Assembly (NCBI RefSeq): GCF_900475675.1
Contig: NZ_LS483403.1
Location: forward strand, 806,001 to 870,000
Direction: 5' to 3'
DNA: 64,000 nucleotides
From: Streptococcus lutetiensis
GTDB taxonomy: Bacteria > Bacillota > Bacilli > Lactobacillales > Streptococcaceae
Position 1 is the first letter of the stretch; each line of letters begins with the position of its first letter. Below, one piece after another: positions 17,498 to 29,672 of this stretch. A program made the translations under genes and the position numbers. The notes beneath the pieces were generated by a model. It saw only the letters and a program-made list of their open reading frames with translations, did no database searches and had not been told where the DNA came from.

Positions 17498-18184
17498 ATG
17501 TATTATCCTGAAAAGTTAAAAAATCGTCGTTTGGAGCTTGGTTTGAAGCAGACCGAGTTGGCAAAGGAGCTTGGCATTTCTAAGCAGTCTTATTTCACAT
17601 GGGAGAAGGGAACAACTCAGCCCACGAAGGCTAATTTGGCTAAGTTAGAAGAACTTTTGCAGGTGCCACATGGTTATTTTAGTGAGCTTGAAATTGCCAC
17701 TTTGTACAAGCAATTAACTGACCAGAATCAAGAAAAAGCTTTGACTTATGTTCAAGATTTACTCGAGGAGCGAAGCAAAGTCGTCTCAATCGTTCAAGAG
17801 CCGCGCTTTGCTTATAAGGTTTACGAGCGTTTGTCAGCTGGTGTCGGAGCTAATATCTATGACGACATGGATTACGACACGGTTTATTTTGATAAAGACT
17901 TGGCGCATGATTTTGCGTCGTGGATTGATGGGGATTCTATGGAGCCTACTTATCACAATGGCTCTGTGGCTCTCATTCGTGAGACTGGTTTTGACTACGA
18001 CGGTGCGGTTTATGCAGTCGTTTGGAACTCACAGACTTACATCAAAAAGGTCTATCGTGAGGAAAATGGGCTGCGCTTAGTGTCAATCAATAAAGATTAC
18101 GATGATAAGTTTGCGCCATATGATGAAAATCCACGTATTGTTGGAAAAATTGTCGGCAACTTCATGCCAATCATAGGAGGATAA
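17498..18184 (+). CDS. hdiR: HdiR-like XRE/S24 self-cleaving repressor
   Basis: 228 residues. An N-terminal XRE helix-turn-helix (KQTELAKELGISKQSYFTWE, ~20-40) is joined to a LexA/UmuD-type S24 domain. The catalytic serine lies in GDSMEPTY (~147), the lysine in TYIKKVYREE, and a candidate Ala-Gly cleavage site in LSAGVG (~112-117). HdiR of Lactococcus is cleaved after DNA damage and derepresses a UmuC-type polymerase, which is encoded two genes downstream here. AAGAGG precedes the ATG. It heads an SOS cassette and has a paralog at 35.6 kb. Confidence 0.9.
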   Translation: MYYPEKLKNRRLELGLKQTELAKELGISKQSYFTWEKGTTQPTKANLAKLEELLQVPHGYFSELEIATLYKQLTDQNQEKALTYVQDLLEERSKVVSIVQEPRFAYKVYERLSAGVGANIYDDMDYDTVYFDKDLAHDFASWIDGDSMEPTYHNGSVALIRETGFDYDGAVYAVVWNSQTYIKKVYREENGLRLVSINKDYDDKFAPYDENPRIVGKIVGNFMPIIGG

Positions 18185-18185
18185 G

Positions 18186-18389
18186 ATGCATTTAAAAGAT
18201 ATTTTAGATTTGGATTCATATGATTTAGCACCAGATAGCAAGGTCGAAATTTTTGATATGGATGATTTTGCAGATTCTGTCATGCATCAGCGTTTTACTA
18301 GGGTTTATTTACCAGAGGATAAAGAGAGCGAACTCTCACCTTATGCTTTCTTGGTTAATGATTCGATTTTAATCACTATGGAGACTTAG
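18186..18389 (+). CDS. Small conserved protein of the UmuC cassette
   Basis: 67 residues, acidic, no membrane segment. It starts 1 bp after the repressor stop with AGGAGG overlapping the end of that gene, and ends directly against the polymerase ATG. Its tight spacing shows it is a real operon member. Proteins of this size commonly sit between the repressor and polymerase in streptococcal SOS cassettes. The function is unknown. Confidence 0.7.
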   Translation: MHLKDILDLDSYDLAPDSKVEIFDMDDFADSVMHQRFTRVYLPEDKESELSPYAFLVNDSILITMET

Positions 18390-19805
18390 ATGGGCTATTT
18401 TGATTATTCACGAGAGCCGCGTTCTGATATCGCCTTTGTGGATATGAAGTCCTTTTATGCTAGTGTGGAGTGCGTGGACCGTGGCTTGCATCCTTTGAAA
18501 ACTTCGCTTTGCGTTATGAGCCGAGCTGAAAATGCCAGTGGCTTGATTTTAGCGTCTTCACCGACATTTAAGAAAGTTTTTGGAACGTCAAATGTCAGCC
18601 GAGCTTATGATTTGCCGTTTGATGTTCACACGCACAAGTTTTCTTATTACAATGCCAAACGTCAAGGTTTGCCTACGACGCCTGAATATGTCGCTTACAT
18701 CGAAAATTGGGCAAAGGCGACTTGGATTGTGCCACCACGAATGGACCGCTACATTGAGAAAAATCTAGAAATTCAGCATATCTTTCAAAACTATGGCAGC
18801 ATCGAAGACATCTTGCCTTACTCGATTGACGAAGGTTTTATTGATTTGACCTCATCGCTGAACTATTTTATCCCAGATAAGACCCTAGGTAAGAAAGAAA
18901 AGCTGGATAAGGTTTCTGCTATGATTCAGCGAGAAATTTGGCAAAAGACAGGCATCTACTCAACGGTTGGCATGTCAAATGCTAATCCATTGCTTGCAAA
19001 GCTTGCTCTTGATAACGAAGCCAAGCACAATCAGAACATGCGTGCCAATTGGTCTTACGAGGATGTTGAGACTAAGGTTTGGGCGATTCCTAAGATGACT
19101 GACTTCTGGGGGATTGGCAGCCGTATGGAAAAACGTCTTAATAAGCTTGGCATTTTTACCATCAAAAAACTCGCTAATTTCAATCCTGATATTCTCAAGA
19201 AAGAGCTTGGTATCGTGGGGGTTGACCTCTTCTTTCATGCTAACGGCATTGATGAAAGCAACGTTCACCAACCCTACAAGCCTAAATCTAAGAGCATTGG
19301 CAATTCTCAGGTTTTGCCACGCGATTATCGCAAGAAAGCCGATATCGAGTTAGTTTTTAGGGAAATGGCAGAGCAGGTTGCTATTCGCCTGAGAAGAGCT
19401 CACAAGAAGGCGACAAATGTGTCGATTTATGTCGGCTTTTCAAAGCAAGAGAAAAAGCACCGTATTCAGGCGCAAATGAAAATCGAGCCTAGCAATAACA
19501 CCAAGCAACTGACTGAGCACGTTTTAACTCTGCTGCGCAAAAAATATGATTCGGGTGCAGTTAGACATATCGCGGTATCTTATTCAGGCTTAGTCGATGA
19601 ATCGTACAGTACGTTTTCTTTATTTGATGACATTGAAAAAATAGAAAAAGAAGAAAGGCTCCAATCAGCTATTGATGCTATTCGTGATCAGTTTGGCTTT
19701 ACGACTATTCAAAAAGCTAATGCTCTGCAGGAAGCCTCACGCAGTTTAGAGCGCAGCAAATTGGTCGGAGGGCATTCAGCAGGAGGATTGGATGGATTAA
19801 GTTAA
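18390..19805 (+). CDS. umuC: Y-family DNA polymerase (UmuC/ImpB-MucB type)
   Basis: 471 residues. The palm starts DIAFVDMKSFYASVECVDRG with the metal-binding aspartate and the steric aromatic pair; the second acidic motif is YSIDEGFIDLT at ~148. A helix-hairpin-helix and little-finger domain follow. Near the C-terminus TFSLFDD resembles a sliding-clamp binding peptide. It performs error-prone translesion synthesis and is cotranscribed with an HdiR-like repressor, so DNA damage should induce it. Confidence 0.92.
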   Translation: MGYFDYSREPRSDIAFVDMKSFYASVECVDRGLHPLKTSLCVMSRAENASGLILASSPTFKKVFGTSNVSRAYDLPFDVHTHKFSYYNAKRQGLPTTPEYVAYIENWAKATWIVPPRMDRYIEKNLEIQHIFQNYGSIEDILPYSIDEGFIDLTSSLNYFIPDKTLGKKEKLDKVSAMIQREIWQKTGIYSTVGMSNANPLLAKLALDNEAKHNQNMRANWSYEDVETKVWAIPKMTDFWGIGSRMEKRLNKLGIFTIKKLANFNPDILKKELGIVGVDLFFHANGIDESNVHQPYKPKSKSIGNSQVLPRDYRKKADIELVFREMAEQVAIRLRRAHKKATNVSIYVGFSKQEKKHRIQAQMKIEPSNNTKQLTEHVLTLLRKKYDSGAVRHIAVSYSGLVDESYSTFSLFDDIEKIEKEERLQSAIDAIRDQFGFTTIQKANALQEASRSLERSKLVGGHSAGGLDGLS

Positions 19806-19806
19806 G

Positions 19807-20166
19807 ATGATTGACCGCAGTTATTTACCATTTCAAGCGGCGCGTGAGCACTACGACAGAGGCATGGAAAAATGGATGGGCTTTTTCTTATCAGAACACA
19901 CCAGCTCACTAAAAGCTGACAAAACCAAAGAACCCCTACACACCAACCTTACTAAAGACCAAAAAGCTCTTCTCCTAAGCCAACTCTACACCAGCCACCT
20001 CACTGGTGTTTTTACAACCGCAAAAGACAAAGACCACAGCCAACAACTCAGAGGCAAAATCACCGAAATCACCCCACAAGAAATCACCATCAAAATGAAA
20101 TCCCACTACCACCTCATCAAAACCAAGGACATCCTAGCAATCGGCGTCGAAGTCGAGGGAGTGTGA
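19807..20166 (+). CDS. YolD-like protein
   Basis: 119 residues starting MIDRSYLPFQAAREHYDRGM, then KWMGFFLSEHTS and a C-terminal beta-rich part with KGKI/ITEITPQEITIKMK-like strands. It fits the YolD-like family, usual partners of Y-family polymerases in Firmicutes. The 2-bp gap from the polymerase stop shows one operon. Codon use becomes unusually C/A-rich (ACC, CAC) from ~19900 to 20130, different from its neighbours. Confidence 0.75.
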   Translation: MIDRSYLPFQAAREHYDRGMEKWMGFFLSEHTSSLKADKTKEPLHTNLTKDQKALLLSQLYTSHLTGVFTTAKDKDHSQQLRGKITEITPQEITIKMKSHYHLIKTKDILAIGVEVEGV

Positions 20167-20186: not shown

Positions 20187-20381
20187 ATGACCACAAAGGA
20201 AGAAGTAAAAAGAATAGTTGATAAATATAACGAAAGCTTTTCAGAGTTATCTAACAATGGCACCGCAAAAGAATTTAAAACCGTTATGAAATATATCGCA
20301 GACCAAGCTAACAAACGCCAGCGACAGTTAGTGGGGTGGAAGAGGAAGAGGATGAAGAATGTGAAGACTAACCAAGAATAA
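20187..20381 (+). CDS. Small hypothetical protein of the SOS cassette
   Basis: 64 residues from ATG 20187, chosen because AAGGAG lies 6 bp upstream; an earlier GTG at 20163 overlaps the previous gene. The sequence is a charged helix (MTTKEEVKRIVDKYNESFSE ...) with a very basic end (GWKRKRMK). No family is recognised. It is the last gene before a strong terminator. Confidence 0.6.
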   Translation: MTTKEEVKRIVDKYNESFSELSNNGTAKEFKTVMKYIADQANKRQRQLVGWKRKRMKNVKTNQE

Positions 20382-20418
20382 CTTACCTAGTTTTATAAAG
20401 AGCTAGGTAAGTTTTTTA
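20381..20418 (+). terminator. Strong rho-independent terminator of the SOS cassette
   Basis: ACTTACCTAG / CTAGGTAAGT perfect stem followed by TTTTTT. Confidence 0.88.
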
Positions 20419-20500: not shown

Positions 20501-21178
20501 TTGGAAGAGAAGCTAATTAAATCAAAACATAGAGTTCAAAAACATGGTGAAGTCTTCACACCTTCTTGGATGGTGCAAAAAATGTTAGACACTCCAGGGG
20601 TGAAAGAAGCTTGTGAAAATGTTTCAACAACTTTTTTAGAGCCTGCAGCTGGTGACGGGAATTTTTTGCTTGCTATTCTTGAGAGAAAATTACAAGCAGT
20701 TGCCGACCAATATGATGAAAGGAATTGGAAAACCAAATCACTAATTGCCTTATCTTCGATTTACGGTATAGAATTTTTAGAGGATAATCTAGAAGTTGCT
20801 CGCTCAAGGATGTTTTTATATTATCTTGACTGGTATGAAAAGCATTTTGGAGAGAGACTTAGTAGCAAAAGTGACATCTACCAATCTGCTCACTATTTGA
20901 TTCATAAAAATATTATTAGAGGTAATACTCTTACGAAAGAACACCCGGTGACAGGTGAACCACTAATGTTTAATGAATGGCAGGTTGTAAAGGGGCATCC
21001 GAGTACGGTGAAAAAAATTCCTTTTGTATTTGCAGAACTGTTTGGCGAAGAGGTTGAACACGATACTAGTGTCGTTGAAGGTCAGCTAAGTTTATTTGAT
21101 TTTGATGATGAAGATGATGAACCTAAAGAAGAGATTAAAGAAATAAACATTCAAAAAGTTTATAAGTTAGGAGATTAG
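20501..21178 (+). CDS. N6-adenine DNA methyltransferase subunit (SAM-binding half)
   Basis: 225 residues from TTG 20501, supported by GGAGG nine bases upstream. KHGEVFTPSWMVQKMLD matches the N-terminal motif of HsdM/Eco57I-type methyltransferases, and FLEPAAGDGNFLLAILE (~45-61) is SAM motif I. The catalytic NPPY motif is absent here but is present in the next protein, so the two may form a split enzyme. An acidic tail contains QLSLF (~205), a canonical sliding-clamp binding pentapeptide. It is the first gene of a three-gene operon, 4 bp before the next ATG. Confidence 0.85.
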   Translation: MEEKLIKSKHRVQKHGEVFTPSWMVQKMLDTPGVKEACENVSTTFLEPAAGDGNFLLAILERKLQAVADQYDERNWKTKSLIALSSIYGIEFLEDNLEVARSRMFLYYLDWYEKHFGERLSSKSDIYQSAHYLIHKNIIRGNTLTKEHPVTGEPLMFNEWQVVKGHPSTVKKIPFVFAELFGEEVEHDTSVVEGQLSLFDFDDEDDEPKEEIKEINIQKVYKLGD

Positions 21179-21182
21179 TTTT

Positions 21183-24100
21183 ATGAATGTTGAGTCAAGT
21201 TTTGACTTTTTAACAATAGATTTAGATACAGCAGAGCTATTCAGCACTATAAACATGGCAGAAAACAACTATGTTCAAGGTGATTATGAGGGTACTTTGA
21301 CCAAGGTTAGAAAAGTAGCTGAAAATGCAGCTCGCATAATTGCAGATAGACAATACTGTGAGATTCCAGAACGTGCAACCTTTAATGATGTCTTAAGAGA
21401 AATTAAAAGAAAAATTGAATATAAAAGGATTGTAGATTATTTCTATGATATTAAAGGAAAAGGAAATAATTCTTCACATCAACTCAATCCTGAAGATGCT
21501 ACAAAAGAGAATGCTTTAAAAGCATTGAAAGAAGTTTTTGATATTCTAGCATGGATGACATTAACTTATATTGACCCTGATATTAAGCGAGAAGCTATTG
21601 GTCAATTCTTAGAACCACGCGCTCTAGAAATGTATAGTACTGCTACTCGTAAATTCATTTATATCCAAACTGTCAAAAATGAAAATGGTTTGTTTAATGC
21701 TTACGATGGTAGCCATAAAATTGGCGAAGGTTCTATTTCAGAAGATGACTTAGAGGCAGACTGGTCACCAAATAGTGATTTTTTACGAGAAGCGGCTCCA
21801 AAGCGTATTAAGCAGTATATGACAACTTCTGGTCTTCCTTATACACTTGGTTGGGTAGAGCTTGCTTACAAGAAATCAACCAAAACTTGGTTCCACGATA
21901 AAGATGTCCATAAAGTTTTAACTCGTTCTGGTATTAATCATTCTAAATACCTTGAAGGAAATGAGTGGTTTGAAACAGACTTAGAAACAGCTAAACAAGC
22001 TATTAAGGCAGTTAAAGAAGGACGTGAATATCTTCAAAATATTATCGAAGAAACACCACAAGCTGAAACAAGAATTGAACTTCGCCCTGAGCAAAAAGAA
22101 GCCGTTGCTAAAACTCAAAAAGTCTTTAAGAAAAAAGACAAAATGCTTTGGAATGCCAAAATGCGTTTTGGTAAAACAATGACTTCTTTACAATTAATCA
22201 AAGAAGAGAAATTTCAAAAAGTTCTTATCATGACTCACCGCCCTGTTGTGTCAGATTCTTGGTTTGAAGACTATCGTAAGTTAAAAATGGATGAAACAGG
22301 CTATGAGTATGGTTCGGTTAACAAAGGTGCCCATATTACTTCATTGAAAAAAGGCGATAAACCTTTTATCTATTTTGCTTCGATTCAATTATTGCGTTAT
22401 AACAATGGTGAAACAAACTTAAAAGACTTTGCTGATGTTGATTGGGATTTAATCATTATTGATGAAGCACATGAAGGTACGCAAACAGAACTTAGCGACA
22501 TTGTCCTTAAACAGCTTATTAAGGAAAATACTAAAGTTCTAGAGCTTTCTGGTACTCCGTTTAATCTTCTAGATCAATTTGATGAAGATCAAGTGTATAC
22601 ATGGGACTATACCATGGAACAACAGGCCAAGACAAAATGGAAGTATGAACATCCTGATGAACCTAATCCATATGATTCTTTGCCAAAAGTGCTCATGTAT
22701 ACTTTTGAAATGAAGAATAAAGCGAAGTTTATGGATGAAAGCAAATCCTTTAACTTTAGAGAGTTCTTCAGAACAGATGAAAATGAGCAGCTCGTCTATA
22801 AAAAAGAAGTCAATGCTTTTCTAGATAACATTACAAATAAAGATAGCAAAACAAACTATCCATTTTCAACTCCTGAATATCGTAATGAACTTCGTCATAC
22901 CCTCTGGATTATGCCAGGTGTTAAGGAAGCTAATGCTTTTGAAGATTTATTGAATGAGCACCCTATCTTTGGTAAAGAATATAAAATTGTAAATGTCGTT
23001 CGCGGAAGTTATACAGATAACGGCGTGACAAATGAAGCTGATATCGAAAAAGTTAGAAATGCTATTACAGACGATCCAACAGCAACTAAAACTATTACAC
23101 TAACTGTTCGTAAATTAACAACAGGTGTTAACGTCCCTCAATGGACAGCTGTTATGTTCTTGTCTAATACTAATAGTGCTATGAACTATCTGCAAGCAGC
23201 CTTCCGTGCACAAACACCTTACTCACATGAAAAACTAGGTAAAAAAGAACGCTGTTATATCTTTGACTTTGCTCCAGATCGTGCTTTGACTGTTATGACA
23301 GAAAGTGCCCAAATCAATACAGGAGTTGGTAAGAAAAATACTGAAGGACAAAAACAAGCCATGACAAGTCTTTTGAACTTTTTGCCAATTCTTGGTAGTT
23401 CAGAGACTGGAATGAAGACTTATAATGTAGACAATATGCTAACGCAGCTTAAGAGGGTTTATGCTGAAAAAGCGGTACGTTCAGGTTTTGAAGATGATAG
23501 CCTTTATAACGATAGATTACTTACATTAACAGCCGAAGATGCTAGCATGTTTAATAAACTAAACGCTATTGTTGGTAAGACACAAAAAACAAAGGCATCA
23601 AACAAGGTGACTGTCAATGAAAACGGCTTGACTGATGAAGAGTATAAAACTGGTGAACAAGGTCAGAAAAAGCCGGCTCGCAAGCGTACCGAAGAAGAAA
23701 AAGCTGCTATTGAAAAAATCAAAGAAGCTAAGAAAGACCGAAAAAAACTTATTTCTATTCTTCGTGGGGTATCAATCCGTATTCCAATGATGATTTACGG
23801 AATGAAAGTTGATTTTGATAAAGATATCACCATTAAAGACTTTATCAATAAAGTCGATGATGAATCTTGGAAAGAATTTATGCCAAAAGGCTTCACTAAA
23901 GGAATGTTTAGTGAAATCACTAAGTACTACGATGCTGAAGTCTTTATCGAGGCAGGGCGTATCATTCGTCAGCGCGCCAAATCCTTTGACTCACTAGACT
24001 TTATCGAACGTGCTGAAAGGGTTGCAGAGCTATTTGGGTCATTTAAAAATCCAGATAAAGAAACAGTTTTGACACCGTGGCGCGTGGTCAATATGCAGAC

Positions 24101-25553
24101 AGCAAAAAGTGTTGGTGGTCTTAATTTCTACGATGATGACTTTACATCAACAACCAACGGAGCTACTTCTAACCTTCATTGGGTAGAAAAAGATATCACA
24201 AGTGAGATTTATCATCCAGAAACTAAAATCTTAGATATTAATTCAAAAACAGGACTCTATCCGCTCCATGCAGCTATTAGTCTTTATTATCAAAAAGTCG
24301 TGGCAAACGATGATAGTCATTTTGAAGCAGATAAAGTCTATCAAGATATCTTAGCTAATAATGTTTATGCTGTTGCAAAAACACCAATGGCAAAAACAAT
24401 TACCGAACGCACATTGACAGGATATCGTGATTATAAAACTAACGTAAAATACATCGAAGACCTTACAGATACCCTTAAAAACGATATCGAAGAAGGTAAA
24501 CAAAAAGTAGAGGAGGCATTCAACCAAGTGAAATTTGACGTCGTAATCGGAAACCCTCCGTATCAGAATGAAGGAATCGGAGTGGTGGCACGTGATGAAC
24601 CGATTTACCATAAATTTATGGATTTATCGTATTCAGTTGCGGATAAAGCAGTATTGATTACTCCAGCACGTTTCTTATTTAATGCAGGTCAAACACCGAA
24701 AGCATGGAATAAACAAATGCTTGAAGATAAGCATTTAAAAGTTTTGTATTATGAACAGGATTCATCTAAGGTGTTCCCTAATACCGATATAAAAGGGGGA
24801 ATTGCTGTAACGTATCGTGATGAAAAATCTGATTTTGGTGCTATTGAAACTTTCACTAGCTTTGAAGAACTAAACTCTATTTTACATAAAGTTACTTTAT
24901 CTAATTTCGAATCATTAGCAAGGATTCATTTTGGACGTAGTAGTTATAAACTTACTAGTTTACTTTATGAGGAAAATCCTAGTTTAAAGGGAAGGGTGAA
25001 AACTAGTGAAGAAAAATCAGTCGGTTCAAATATTTTTGACAAATTACCAGAGATATTTTTGGATAGTCCTTTAAATGGAAATTATATCAGAATATATGGT
25101 CGCCAAAATAACGCTCGTGTTTATAAATGGATAAAAAGCAAGTATGTTGAACAACATCCAAACTTGAATAAGTATAAAATTTTGATACCTAAATCTAATG
25201 GAAGCGGCGCCATAGGCGAAGTGCTCTCTACACCCCTAATCGGGGAACCCCTAATCGGGTATACCCAAACGTTTATTTCTTTTGGTGCTTTTGACAATAA
25301 AGAAGAGGCAGAAAATCTTTTAAAATATATAAAAACCAAATTTGCAAGAACTATGCTTGGAACTATGAAAATTACTCAAGATAATGCAACAAAAGAAGTT
25401 TGGAAAAATGTACCAATGCAAAACTTTACGTCAACCTCTGATATTGACTGGACAAAATCAATAGCTGAGATTGACCAGCAACTATACAAAAAATATGGAC
25501 TTTCAGAAGAAGAAATCCAATTTATCGAAAGTAAAGTGAAAGAGATGAAGTAG
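21183..25553 (+). CDS. Giant restriction protein: HEPN-like, GIY-YIG-like, SF2 helicase, Eco57I-type methylase
   Basis: 1456 residues. Residues ~1-130 are helical and DUF4145/HEPN-like. About 150-290 resembles T5orf172/GIY-YIG domains (HKIGEG near 179, EWFETDLETAKQAI near 261), a possible nuclease. Residues ~295-720 are an SF2 translocase with Walker-A-like KMRFGKTMTS (~326), DEAH at 427-430 and a helicase C half (TVRKLTTGVNVPQW). A Lys-rich linker (~830-870) leads to a methylase half with LDINSKTGLYPLHAA (~1018), NPPY at 1124-1127 and a target-recognition-like tail. One polypeptide could thus translocate, cut and modify DNA, with the preceding protein giving a second SAM motif. Domain calls beyond the helicase and NPPY are inference. 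Confidence 0.8.
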   Translation: MNVESSFDFLTIDLDTAELFSTINMAENNYVQGDYEGTLTKVRKVAENAARIIADRQYCEIPERATFNDVLREIKRKIEYKRIVDYFYDIKGKGNNSSHQLNPEDATKENALKALKEVFDILAWMTLTYIDPDIKREAIGQFLEPRALEMYSTATRKFIYIQTVKNENGLFNAYDGSHKIGEGSISEDDLEADWSPNSDFLREAAPKRIKQYMTTSGLPYTLGWVELAYKKSTKTWFHDKDVHKVLTRSGINHSKYLEGNEWFETDLETAKQAIKAVKEGREYLQNIIEETPQAETRIELRPEQKEAVAKTQKVFKKKDKMLWNAKMRFGKTMTSLQLIKEEKFQKVLIMTHRPVVSDSWFEDYRKLKMDETGYEYGSVNKGAHITSLKKGDKPFIYFASIQLLRYNNGETNLKDFADVDWDLIIIDEAHEGTQTELSDIVLKQLIKENTKVLELSGTPFNLLDQFDEDQVYTWDYTMEQQAKTKWKYEHPDEPNPYDSLPKVLMYTFEMKNKAKFMDESKSFNFREFFRTDENEQLVYKKEVNAFLDNITNKDSKTNYPFSTPEYRNELRHTLWIMPGVKEANAFEDLLNEHPIFGKEYKIVNVVRGSYTDNGVTNEADIEKVRNAITDDPTATKTITLTVRKLTTGVNVPQWTAVMFLSNTNSAMNYLQAAFRAQTPYSHEKLGKKERCYIFDFAPDRALTVMTESAQINTGVGKKNTEGQKQAMTSLLNFLPILGSSETGMKTYNVDNMLTQLKRVYAEKAVRSGFEDDSLYNDRLLTLTAEDASMFNKLNAIVGKTQKTKASNKVTVNENGLTDEEYKTGEQGQKKPARKRTEEEKAAIEKIKEAKKDRKKLISILRGVSIRIPMMIYGMKVDFDKDITIKDFINKVDDESWKEFMPKGFTKGMFSEITKYYDAEVFIEAGRIIRQRAKSFDSLDFIERAERVAELFGSFKNPDKETVLTPWRVVNMQTAKSVGGLNFYDDDFTSTTNGATSNLHWVEKDITSEIYHPETKILDINSKTGLYPLHAAISLYYQKVVANDDSHFEADKVYQDILANNVYAVAKTPMAKTITERTLTGYRDYKTNVKYIEDLTDTLKNDIEEGKQKVEEAFNQVKFDVVIGNPPYQNEGIGVVARDEPIYHKFMDLSYSVADKAVLITPARFLFNAGQTPKAWNKQMLEDKHLKVLYYEQDSSKVFPNTDIKGGIAVTYRDEKSDFGAIETFTSFEELNSILHKVTLSNFESLARIHFGRSSYKLTSLLYEENPSLKGRVKTSEEKSVGSNIFDKLPEIFLDSPLNGNYIRIYGRQNNARVYKWIKSKYVEQHPNLNKYKILIPKSNGSGAIGEVLSTPLIGEPLIGYTQTFISFGAFDNKEEAENLLKYIKTKFARTMLGTMKITQDNATKEVWKNVPMQNFTSTSDIDWTKSIAEIDQQLYKKYGLSEEEIQFIESKVKEMK

Positions 25554-25564
25554 GAGGATATTGA

Positions 25565-26335
25565 ATGGATCCAATGTTAGAATTAGCTAAAGGAGTAGCT
25601 TCAGAGGTTTATAAAGATGGGTTGAAGCCGAGTGTTCAAGAAGCTGGAAAGCTTTTAGTAAGACCTCTTAAAATTATTAACACTTGTTTTCAAGGTATTG
25701 ATATTTGGTTAGAAAAAAGAGATTATAATTTAGAGAAAACGAAGGTTATTTTAGCGGAAAAAATAAAAAATATTCCTGAAGATAAATTAACTACTCCAGA
25801 GCCATATATCGCAGTTCCGGCTTTAGAAGCAATATCATATTCAATGGATAATGAGCAATTGAAGAATATGTATGCCAATCTATTAGCTAGAGCTATGTTA
25901 AAGTCAGAACAAAGTAAAGTTCATCCATCATTTGTAGAAATAATCAAACAATTAAGCCCAAATGATGCCCTTCTATTTAAAGAAATCATGGAACGTGAAT
26001 ATTCTCCTATAATTCATTTGTCTGTTGTTCAAGATATAGGTAATAACGACTATCATTACAATCTTAATTGGAAAAACAATTATAATGAGTCTAATGTTTC
26101 ACTATCAAATCTTCAAAGACTAGGATTGATTGAAATCCCTAATAAAAAGGCTTATTCTCTTGGTGATGTATATAATATTGTTCGTGAGTCAAAGGGATAT
26201 AAAAAAGTTTGTCAAGAATTAAAAGAAAAATATCCACAAAATGAACTTCATGAAGATAAAAGTTTTGTAAATACCAATGCATTATCACGGTCATTTTATG
26301 AAGTCTGTTTGGATGATGATATAAGGTACTATTAA
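25565..26335 (+). CDS. DUF4393 (Abi-alpha) protein
   Basis: 256 residues starting MDPMLELAKGVASEVYKD; then LEKRDYNLEKTKVILAEKI, PEPYIAVPALEAISYSMD and LKNMYANLLARAMLKSE, the conserved order of the DUF4393/Abi-alpha family. A winged-helix-like C-terminal part follows (SLSNLQRLGLIEIP). Members are linked to abortive phage infection. AGGAGG precedes the ATG, 11 bp after the restriction protein stop, so it belongs to that operon. The mechanism is unknown. Confidence 0.82.
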   Translation: MDPMLELAKGVASEVYKDGLKPSVQEAGKLLVRPLKIINTCFQGIDIWLEKRDYNLEKTKVILAEKIKNIPEDKLTTPEPYIAVPALEAISYSMDNEQLKNMYANLLARAMLKSEQSKVHPSFVEIIKQLSPNDALLFKEIMEREYSPIIHLSVVQDIGNNDYHYNLNWKNNYNESNVSLSNLQRLGLIEIPNKKAYSLGDVYNIVRESKGYKKVCQELKEKYPQNELHEDKSFVNTNALSRSFYEVCLDDDIRYY

Positions 26336-26424
26336 AAATATACTAACGGAGGTTCTAATTTAATATGAATGAAATTACTCCAAATTATAATTTATACTCG
26401 TAAACGATGTAATCAACTATATAG

Positions 26425-26455
26425 AAAAGTACTAACTTGGTAGTTAGTACTTTTT
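26425..26455 (+). terminator. Terminator of the restriction/Abi operon
   Basis: Perfect stem AAAAGTACTAAC / GTTAGTACTTTT with a six-base loop and a T run. Confidence 0.88.
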
Positions 26456-26728
26456 CTTTTATAGTCATCATATGGTATATTATAAAAGAGGTACTTATTA
26501 TGGGTTTAAATATTAACACTGAAAAACTCACCATTCTCTCGCCCCAATTTTTCCAGCGCTAGCTAATTTTCTCCAAACTCACAAAAAAATTCAAACAAGC
26601 ATTATTCTCTCAAAATCTTCTTTACAGCCCCGCTATTTTCCAAAAGAAATCATACCGTGACTAAAAACTTCCTTGATTTTATGCTAAAATAGAGCTAAGT
26701 TATTTAGAACAGAACGGGAGTAGAGGTT
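26456..26728. other. Gene-free stretch at the right edge of the accessory block
   Basis: Only micro-frames are seen: a 12-codon frame at 26365-26403 after GGAGG, and a ~20-codon frame from ATG 26500 (MGLNINTEKLTI...) preceded by AGAGG and a TATATTATAA element. Both look like 5' stubs of lost genes. The promoter for gntR (TAAAAT near 26691) lies at the end. Confidence 0.4.
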
Positions 26729-27427
26729 ATGATTCCAGCGTATATTAGAATTCATGATGCGTTAAAGAAAAAGATTGACGATGGTTTTTGGGAGATTAGT
26801 CAGCGTTTGCCGAGTGAGCGTGATTTGGCAGATGACTACGAGGTGAGTCGTATGACACTTCGTCAGGCGATTACGCTTTTGGTGGAAGAAGGGATTCTTG
26901 AGCGCCGTGTGGGTAGCGGGACTTATGTGGCGAGTCATCGTGTGCAAGAGAAGATGCGCGGGACAACGAGTTTCACAGAGATTGTGCGTTCGCAAGGCAA
27001 GACCCCGTCATCTCAGGTGGTTTCTTATCAGCGTAAGCCTGCCAATGAGACTGAGATTCAGCAGTTGCAACTGAAAACTAGTGATTATGTGGTTCGTATG
27101 GAGCGCGTGCGTTATGCGGATAATATGCCACTTGTTTTTGAGGTGGCGTCAATCCCAGAGAAGTTGATTCGTGAGTTTAAGCGTGAGGATATCGCGGAGC
27201 ATTTCTTCCAGACTTTGACGGATAACGGTTATGAGATTGGTAAGAGTCAGCAAACCATTTATGCCAAAAATGCGAGTGAGCGCGTGGCTAACTACCTTAA
27301 GGTTCCGAAAAATCATGCCGTGCTGGCTTTGACACAGGTCTCATATTTCACAGACGGCCGACCATTTGAGTACGTACACAGTCAGTATGTCGGCGACCGC
27401 TTCGAATTTTATTTGGAGAATAATTAA
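26729..27427 (+). CDS. GntR/HutC-family regulator with UTRA domain
   Basis: 232 residues. The winged helix-turn-helix (LPSERDLADDYEVSRMTLRQ, ~27-46, then GTYVASH) is followed by a UTRA effector domain from ~80 (GTTSFTEIVRSQGK ... FEYVHSQYVGDRFEFYLENN). This is the layout of NagR/YvoA-type regulators that sense sugar phosphates. The target is not evident since the neighbours are ylxM-ffh. AACGGGAG-like spacing and ATG support the start. Confidence 0.88.
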   Translation: MIPAYIRIHDALKKKIDDGFWEISQRLPSERDLADDYEVSRMTLRQAITLLVEEGILERRVGSGTYVASHRVQEKMRGTTSFTEIVRSQGKTPSSQVVSYQRKPANETEIQQLQLKTSDYVVRMERVRYADNMPLVFEVASIPEKLIREFKREDIAEHFFQTLTDNGYEIGKSQQTIYAKNASERVANYLKVPKNHAVLALTQVSYFTDGRPFEYVHSQYVGDRFEFYLENN

Positions 27428-27727: not shown

Positions 27728-28060
27728 ATGGAAATTGAAAAAACCAATCGTATGAATGCTCTTTTTGAGTTTTATGCTGCGCTTTTGACAGATAAGCAGA
27801 TGAATTATATCGAACTGTATTATGCGGATGACTATAGCTTGGCTGAGATTGCTGAGGAATTCGGTGTTAGCCGTCAGGCAGTTTATGATAATATCAAACG
27901 TACTGAAAAGATTTTAGAAGCTTATGAGATGAAGCTGCACATGTATTCGGATTATATTGTTCGCAGTCAGATTTTTGATGAGATTTTGGATAAATACCCA
28001 TCAGATGATTTCTTGAAAGAAAAGATTGCCATTTTGAGCAGTATTGATAACCGAGATTAA
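27728..28060 (+). CDS. ylxM: YlxM, putative SRP-associated helix-turn-helix protein
   Basis: 110 residues, sigma-70 region 4-like helix-turn-helix ([20 protein letters not shown], ~36-55). It is found directly upstream of ffh in streptococci, as here, with a 46-bp gap. YlxM of S. mutans influences SRP function. TATGGTAAAAT, a probable -10 region, precedes the ATG by ~15 bp. Confidence 0.93.
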
Positions 28061-28106: not shown

Positions 28107-29672
28107 ATGGCTTTTGAAAGTTTGACAGAACGCCTGCAAGGGGTTTTTAAAAATATTCGCGGAAAGAAAAAGCTATCTGAAAAAGATGTTCAAGAAGTAA
28201 CCAAGGAGATTCGCTTAGCTTTGCTTGAAGCTGACGTTGCTCTTCCGGTCGTTAAGACATTTATCAAACGTGTTCGTGAACGTGCTGTTGGTCATGAAAT
28301 CATTGATACGCTCGACCCAACACAACAAATCGTTAAAATCGTTAACGAAGAATTAACAGAAATCCTTGGTTCTGAAACAGCTGAGCTTGAAAAATCACCT
28401 AAAATTCCTACAATCATTATGATGGTCGGTCTTCAAGGTGCTGGTAAAACGACATTTGCTGGTAAATTGGCTAACAAGCTGATTAAAGAAGAAAATGCAC
28501 GTCCAATGATGATTGCGGCTGATATCTATCGTCCAGCAGCCATCGACCAATTGAAGACTCTTGGTAGCCAAATTAATGTTCCAGTCTTTGATATGGGAAC
28601 TGACCACTCAGCCGTTGAAATCGTAACAAACGGTCTTGCACAAGCCAAAGAAAACCACAACGACTACGTTATCATCGATACAGCTGGTCGTCTGCAAATC
28701 GATGAAGCTTTGATGCAAGAACTTCGTGATGTTAAAGCTCTTGCTAAACCAAATGAAATTCTTTTGGTTGTTGATAGCATGATTGGTCAAGAAGCTGCTA
28801 ATGTCGCTGACGAATTCAACAAACAATTGGATATCACTGGGGTTGTCTTGACTAAGATTGATGGTGATACACGTGGTGGTGCGGCACTTTCTATCCGCGA
28901 AATCACTGGTAAACCAATCAAATTCACTGGTACTGGTGAAAAAATCACTGATATCGAAACCTTCCACCCAGACCGTATGTCAAGCCGTATCCTTGGCATG
29001 GGTGATTTGCTCACATTGATCGAAAAAGCAAGTCAAGAATACGATGAAAAACGTTCAATGGAACTCGCTGAAAAAATGCGTGAAAACACCTTTGACTTTA
29101 ACGATTTCATCGAACAACTTGACCAAGTGCAAAATATGGGACCAATGGAAGATCTTCTTAAGATGGTTCCTGGTATGGCTAATAACCCTGCACTTAAAAA
29201 CTTTAAAGTCGATGAAAAAGCTGTCGCTCGTAAACGTGCTATCGTGTCATCAATGACACCTGAAGAACGTGAAAATCCTGATTTGCTAACACCTAGCCGT
29301 CGTCGTCGTATTGCAGCTGGTTCAGGTAACAGCTTTGTTGATGTCAACAAATTCATCAAAGATTTCAACCAAGCAAAACAAATGATGCAAGGTGTTATGT
29401 CTGGTGACATGGAAAAAATGATGAAAAAAATGGGAATCAATCCAAATAACCTTCCTAAAAACATGCCAAATGGTATGGATATGTCATCGCTTGAAGGCAT
29501 GATGGGTGGAAATGGTATGCCAGACCTATCAGCGCTTGGTGGAGACATGGATCTTAGCCAAATGATGGGTGGCGGATTCAAAGGTAAAATTGGTGAATTT
29601 GCTATGAAACAATCAATGAAACGCATGGCAAACAAAATGAAAAAAGCTAAGAAAAAACGCGGGAAGAAGTAA
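28107..29672 (+). CDS. ffh: Signal recognition particle GTPase
   Basis: 521 residues. The N domain and G domain carry GLQGAGKTTFAGKLA (~109), DTAGRLQ and TKIDGD. The M domain has the SRP-RNA-binding region (LTPSRRRRIAAGSG) and a methionine-rich tail with repeated MGG and GMD units before a lysine-rich end. It binds signal sequences and docks ribosomes at FtsY. AGGAG lies upstream. Confidence 0.97.
   Translation: MAFESLTERLQGVFKNIRGKKKLSEKDVQEVTKEIRLALLEADVALPVVKTFIKRVRERAVGHEIIDTLDPTQQIVKIVNEELTEILGSETAELEKSPKIPTIIMMVGLQGAGKTTFAGKLANKLIKEENARPMMIAADIYRPAAIDQLKTLGSQINVPVFDMGTDHSAVEIVTNGLAQAKENHNDYVIIDTAGRLQIDEALMQELRDVKALAKPNEILLVVDSMIGQEAANVADEFNKQLDITGVVLTKIDGDTRGGAALSIREITGKPIKFTGTGEKITDIETFHPDRMSSRILGMGDLLTLIEKASQEYDEKRSMELAEKMRENTFDFNDFIEQLDQVQNMGPMEDLLKMVPGMANNPALKNFKVDEKAVARKRAIVSSMTPEERENPDLLTPSRRRRIAAGSGNSFVDVNKFIKDFNQAKQMMQGVMSGDMEKMMKKMGINPNNLPKNMPNGMDMSSLEGMMGGNGMPDLSALGGDMDLSQMMGGGFKGKIGEFAMKQSMKRMANKMKKAKKKRGKK

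Follow-up and report, generated by a model that had tools for sequence, protein, structure and literature searches.

The Type ISP enzymes LlaGI and LlaBIII, the Type IIG enzymes and the DnmA-YeeB-YeeC cluster all share parts with P1 and P2, the first two genes of a restriction-modification (R-M) operon of Streptococcus lutetiensis, but each of them differs from P1-P2 in at least one of the features tested. The operon is located in a 64,000-nucleotide stretch of contig NZ_LS483403.1 (positions 806,001 to 870,000; hereafter the window, to which coordinates refer) and consists of three genes on the forward strand, P1 (20501-21178), P2 (21183-25553) and P3 (25565-26335). Like Type ISP enzymes, P2 joins in one chain a superfamily 2 (SF2) helicase-like ATPase, a gamma-class methyltransferase (MTase) and a C-terminal domain with a putative recognition role. 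However, LlaGI and LlaBIII are single polypeptides with an N-terminal Mrr nuclease, whereas P2 begins with HEPN and T5orf172/GIY-YIG domains, and a consensus MTase N-half is encoded separately by P1. Residues 1-300 of P2 gave HEPN and T5orf172, and the Pfam matches listed for them (E ≤ 1) include no Mrr family. We know of no Type IIG enzyme with a translocase. Such enzymes are described as carrying an N-terminal cleavage domain on a gamma-MTase and cutting at a fixed distance (PMC3874165), while P2 possesses an SF2 helicase. The DnmA-YeeB-YeeC cluster of Bacillus subtilis and Vibrio crassostreae combines an MTase, an SF2 helicase and a T5orf172/GIY-YIG protein, all of which are also present in P1-P2; in that cluster, however, there is one MTase and the helicase and T5orf172 parts are separate genes (PMC9973331), whereas P1-P2 has a nuclease-helicase fusion and a split MTase. 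Single MTases made of two chains are exemplified by M.AquI and M.EcoHK31I, as outlined in PMC3404938. These are cytosine-C5 enzymes broken elsewhere, while P1-P2 is of the gamma class, its break lies between motifs III and IV, and the catalytic half in P1-P2-type systems is often fused to the restriction subunit.

No published description of a P1-P2-type family was recognised in searches of the open-access literature. A previous sequence-only reading knew of no described system with this combination of genes; the whole is indeed not catalogued, but its parts are, PADLOC already listing them under Type IIG and Type II. PDLC03626 matches the protein joining the restriction subunit to the catalytic half, PDLC03375 the half with the NPPY motif and PDLC03390 the N-half; its label is Type II methyltransferase for either MTase half taken alone and Type IIG for the large chain. 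In the fused protein of one relative (L055), the best stretches of two PADLOC MTase models fall on adjacent halves, residues 107-284 and 286-626. Our analysis indicates that P1 and P2 probably constitute one widespread, ATP-dependent R-M system, in which the gamma-MTase is split between the two chains, the catalytic half (CAT) and the putative target-recognition domain (TRD) form a swappable cassette, and P3 is a passenger.

P1 (225 amino acids, with a TTG start codon) is an MTase N-half on a separate chain. It displays motif X (GEVFTP), motif I (EPAAGDGNF, 20639-20665, forward strand), motif II (YGIEF) and a motif III-like element (NIIRGNTL), and it has no NPPY. Motif I conforms to the consensus in 38 of the 39 distinct P1 sequences, the exception being L013, and the exact motif II YGIE is found in 33 of them. 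In M.TaqI-type structures S-adenosylmethionine (SAM) is bound by the motif II acid and the motif I glycines. P2 (1456 amino acids) contains a restriction subunit followed by an altered MTase N-half (psN, residues 945-1095, 24015-24467), CAT (residues 1112-1230, 24516-24872) and the TRD with the C-terminus (residues 1231-1456, 24873-25550), all on the forward strand. NPPY is located at residues 1124-1127 and was present in all 86 distinct CAT sequences; together with an M.TaqI-like fold it places P2 in the gamma class of adenine MTases. The psN part is marked by LTPWRVV, LDINSKTGLYPL and YAVAKTPMA. Its motif I is altered (LDINSKTG) and carries a lysine, in the form K[TS]GLYP in 43 of 43 distinct psN sequences. 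The place of motif II never holds an acid, being alanine or cysteine in 42 of the 43 by pattern and cysteine in the remaining one (L083, ICKTPMA). In a second type of N-half, termed NM, LEITCGEAPY or a near form was found in 34 of 43 sequences and YG[YF]E in 39. A motif I of consensus form and a motif II with its acid are both on P1 and not on the chain with NPPY.

These results bear out the proposal that SAM-binding and catalytic motifs reside on separate chains. It needs refinement in that the operon encodes a single catalytic half but two N-halves of an MTase, the conserved altered N-half being part of P2, for which the model predicts a complete MTase fold even on its own. When complete fused MTases of relatives were compared with the window, their N-halves aligned with P1 (hhalign probability 97, E 9.5e-11) and their C-half with the P2 C-terminus (E 2.5e-121). 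Homology of psN to P1 is suggested because of motif order and predicted fold rather than profile similarity; a close profile relationship was rejected, the hhalign probability being only 1.4. The corresponding values were 1.5 for NM against psNR (an altered N-half, like psN) and 19 when P2 residues 850-1095 were aligned with the psNR segment, whereas psNR and P1 reached 84.

Sequence matches were detected in 61 of 284 Streptococcus genomes (E ≤ 1e-50) and in 34 of 295 genomes at the level of the order (E ≤ 1e-60), the window's own being included in both counts. Moreover, 89 plasmid records matched, 31 of them covering at least 80% of P2, as did 14 phage records, none of which reached 80% coverage. 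P2 is single-copy in the 1.79 Mb host genome, and its closest named relative, in S. equinus, is 95% identical. Loci for comparison were chosen by their match to P2 and are thus non-random; they were collapsed to 112 distinct helicase subunits, and an N-half and one NPPY half were both found within 6.5 kb of the helicase subunit ("nearby") in 105 of these. The position of CAT varies, as it may be joined to the N-half or to the helicase protein, or stand free. With R denoting the restriction subunit and slashes separating proteins, the 105 loci comprised 33 NM-CAT / R-psNR, 32 P1 / HEPN-R-psN-CAT (the window's type), nine NM / R-psN-CAT, six P1 / R-psNR-CAT, five HEPN-R-psN-CAT / P1, five P1 / R-psNR / CAT, four NM / R-psNR / CAT, four P1 / CAT / R-psNR, two NM / CAT / R-psNR, two NM-CAT / R and three single forms. 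The N-half and the NPPY half were consequently one protein in 35 loci (NM-CAT / R-psNR and NM-CAT / R), and elsewhere the parts were split over two or three genes whose order varied. Five of the seven remaining loci (L014, L037, L079, L144 and L148) end at a DNA edge, while L107 has a fused NM-CAT in the same locus, beyond 6.5 kb. The only true exception was L087, a shorter R-psNR-CAT with no nuclease domain or N-half detected. An order-wide sample had all parts in 19 of 20 loci; L160, which comes from this sample and is of the same type as L087, was collapsed with L087. Both encode a 1291-residue helicase-psNR-CAT protein (L087:3698-7573 and L160:2456-6331), with no T5orf172 detected and no N-half neighbour, possibly a product of reduction or decay. 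In all 32 non-window P2-family rows a P1 or NM-type N-half adjoins P2 (30 by BLAST; L011 and L012 by neighbouring ORFs, i.e., open reading frames).

Two of these relatives showed further peculiarities. In the Bacteroidia locus L011, a second protein that by reading looks like T5orf172/GIY-YIG (IYILTNP, VKIGYAT; L011:12329-12988) overlaps the end of the R-CAT ORF. In Lacticaseibacillus pantheris (L013:8007-12863) the P2 relative lies in two overlapping ORFs and P1 is short, a consequence of either recent decay or sequencing errors.

The swap unit starts inside the MTase fold, and CAT and TRD are exchanged between strains as one piece. Comparison of the window with another Streptococcus genome (L025/L067) revealed high identity for P1 (99%), GIY (99%), helicase (98%) and psN (99%) and low identity for HEPN (62%), CAT (40%) and TRD (14%). 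At the DNA level, similarity to L067 breaks off at 24566, corresponding to codon 1128 just past NPPY, and returns at 26629, beyond P3. When pairwise distances were compared by rank correlation across the 31 genomes in which P1 and P2 are paired, two blocks separated, namely P1, HEPN, GIY, helicase and psN (0.76-0.90 internally) and CAT, TRD and C-end (0.56-0.86 internally), with values between blocks from -0.08 to 0.11. For example, P1 correlated with helicase (0.85) and psN (0.83) and CAT with TRD (0.86), as opposed to 0.03 for P1-CAT and 0.05 for psN-CAT. The pattern was the same in the 27 Streptococcus genomes alone. In a tree of 85 of the 86 distinct CAT sequences (the partial L015 was left out), 14 changes among fused-to-R, fused-to-N and free contexts were counted, compared with a minimum possible of 2 and a mean of 32.2 after shuffling, the latter showing that context is also clustered on the tree. 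This tree was built with a quick method and has some long branches, and exchange inside CAT could inflate the count. If only branches with good support are counted, the three labels still require a minimum of 7, 5 and 6 changes, respectively. Taken by itself, the "free" label clusters only weakly, as 28 of 500 shuffles gave a value as low.

P1 and P2 are under purifying selection. The ratio of nonsynonymous to synonymous rates (dN/dS) was 0.080 for P1 and 0.064 for P2 segment 150-1090 (limits in aligned codons) against L067, while the C-half, too diverged from L067 to use, gave 0.066 against L066; P1 against L066 was not used as dS was saturated at 3.0. HEPN, which is optional and separately exchanged, showed values of approximately 0.3 (L067) and 0.2 (L066).

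The HEPN, T5orf172/GIY-YIG-like and SF2 helicase parts previously read in P2, as well as the R-M character of the operon, were confirmed by domain families. The N-terminus of P2 (residues 5-135, 21195-21587, forward strand; DUF4145-like) has the four-helix HEPN fold. All 50 matches listed by VIA-align in a PDB fold search with residues 1-300 fell within residues 1-153, on the HEPN side, and the best Foldseek matches for the same segment were HEPN or unrelated. HEPN RNases have the catalytic motif Rx4-6H. P2 has a GNxxxH-like element with variants (KGNNSSHQ and others) and no clear conserved arginine before it. The nuclease domain follows at residues 155-285 (21645-22037, forward strand), with Y160, K179-x-G181, R208, D239, H243 and E261 invariant. 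The T5orf172/GIY-YIG profile scored 20.4 bits on the window segment against a cut-off of 20, the whole-P2 query falling below the cut-off, and 20 of 20 members including the window matched at E ≤ 0.1. Alignment of the segment to that of R-type proteins had an hhalign probability of 96, while fold matches to T5 Orf172 proteins in a viral library were weak. The GIY profile gave only two weak OTU-domain matches against PDB sequences, among which P1, P2 and P3 had no match within the limits of the searches. The helicase/translocase (ResIII, residues 296-800, 22068-23582, forward strand) has three motifs, WNAKMRFGKT, DEAHEG and LSGTPF, that are the same in all 33 of 33 sequences.

We infer from these parts that P1-P2 cut and methylate DNA. 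The C-terminal domain of P2, judging by fold and exchange, would read the DNA target, the SF2 motor would move P2 along DNA and the T5orf172/GIY-YIG domain would be expected to cleave it. Methylation, expected at N6 of adenine because of NPPY, would be carried out by the gamma-class MTase, which is divided over the two chains between motifs III and IV. P1 would contribute the SAM-binding half, while target recognition and the NPPY half would come from the C-terminus of P2. The altered N-half of P2, devoid of the usual SAM residues, probably links the motor with the half for catalysis and recognition, which would act as the specificity cassette that strains swap.

P1 is only a putative SAM half because, in an AlphaFold (AF2) model of P2 residues 850-1456, psN and CAT pack as a full gamma-MTase fold resembling CamA, M.TaqI, LlaGI and LlaBIII. 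Plain trans-completion, with P1 as the sole N-half, was dropped on account of this model. The model would also suit a Type ISP-like P2 that is complete by itself and has an unusual SAM pocket, P1 being an accessory that acts as stabiliser, regulator or second SAM sensor; in addition, the altered motif I must be functional in some way since it is invariant. However, that motif I carries a lysine and the motif II place has no acid, while the acidic motif II is kept in most P1 and NM sequences. Furthermore, although P2 alone is modelled as complete, an N-half gene is nearby at nearly all loci, and in a third of these NPPY is fused to an NM-type N-half and not to psN. We consider sufficiency of P2 rather unlikely. 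A speculative idea, of fairly low probability, is partner exchange, in which CAT-TRD would methylate when paired with the SAM half and, paired with the altered half, would dock on the motor and direct cutting. Nearly every locus has two N-halves, one SAM-competent by motif and one altered and tethered to the motor, and a single CAT-TRD attached to either. That P1 is a decaying MTase remnant in a broken restriction system could be imagined given its short length and lack of NPPY, but this was rejected on the basis of its low dN/dS, that of P2, and motifs conserved across genera, and is strongly disfavoured.

The sequence-only reading had also joined P3 to the system. P3 (256 amino acids, co-oriented) belongs to the Abi-alpha family (DUF4393, PADLOC PDC-S47), scoring 166.9 bits against PF14337 with a cut-off of 29. 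A protein of the same family, EF2833, was reported to mediate abortive infection (Abi) of phage Idefix in Enterococcus faecalis (PMC6356687); it is encoded by a prophage, while P3 follows a restriction operon. This tested Abi function, together with the operon layout, could suggest one Abi-coupled system in which P3 backs up restriction: the gaps are 4 nt between P1 and P2 and 11 nt between P2 and P3, AGGAGG precedes the P3 start, and terminator-like hairpins bracket the three genes, which may be on the same transcript. These hairpins (20380-20413, 15-pair stem; 26424-26455, 14-pair stem; forward strand, each with a T run) match the consensus only, and with 5 such sites observed compared with 3.3 expected from shuffles they are weak evidence alone. 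While the operon itself is real, with coordinates and motifs correct, and the P1-P2 parts recur together, P3 was not seen to accompany them elsewhere. No P3 relative was found (BLAST, 1e-5) beside P1-P2 in 28 other Streptococcus loci (L016-L043; flanks of about 1.5 kb, some cut by contig ends) or in 12 loci of named genomes (L002-L013; flanks of up to 8 kb), the two sets having five loci in common. In S. infantarius P3 may be linked to the system, as P0257 and P0065 lie on contigs of equal length (173,549). Conversely, PF14337 exceeded its cut-off in 10 of 284 Streptococcus genomes, the window's own match included, and no P1-P2 parts were detected near it in the other nine (flanks of about 5-6 kb in four and 1.5 kb in five). 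The same chromosomal slot is occupied in L067 by a Panacea gene and a gene for 371 residues, and in L002/L066 by a Fic/Doc gene, which is on the opposite strand. A single three-gene system was rejected because of these slot and co-occurrence results and appears quite improbable; we infer instead that P3 is an independent, exchangeable passenger.

The slot was placed by downstream genes matching window 26729-27427, 27728-28060 and 28107-29672, which we take to be GntR, YlxM-like and Ffh-like. Next-downstream genes in other loci include GmrSD, AbiH, YobI-ATPase and an MTES_1575 helicase, 7 of 10 neighbour proteins scanned having a Pfam match at 1e-3, and the site 3' of the R-M genes resembles a slot for defence genes. 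In a Selenomonas relative (L012:6605-7684), AbiH (1e-35), another Abi gene, lies in this slot directly 3' of the R-M genes. Directly upstream of the operon (17498-20166) are an S24-type helix-turn-helix repressor, an impB/mucB/samB (UmuC-like) polymerase and a 119-residue protein, a block kept in the L067 locus at 92-99%.

If the halves that PADLOC treats separately are one enzyme, many annotations in Lactobacillales, including those of lactococcal and enterococcal plasmids, would need joining. A cassette starting in the middle of an MTase fold is unlike the swapping of only a recognition subunit or domain, and points to a reading head that is exchangeable in nature. Should partner exchange hold true, modification and restriction would share one reading head inside the MTase fold. 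The layout of two N-halves and one CAT offers a testable idea of how an enzyme might choose between marking and cutting.

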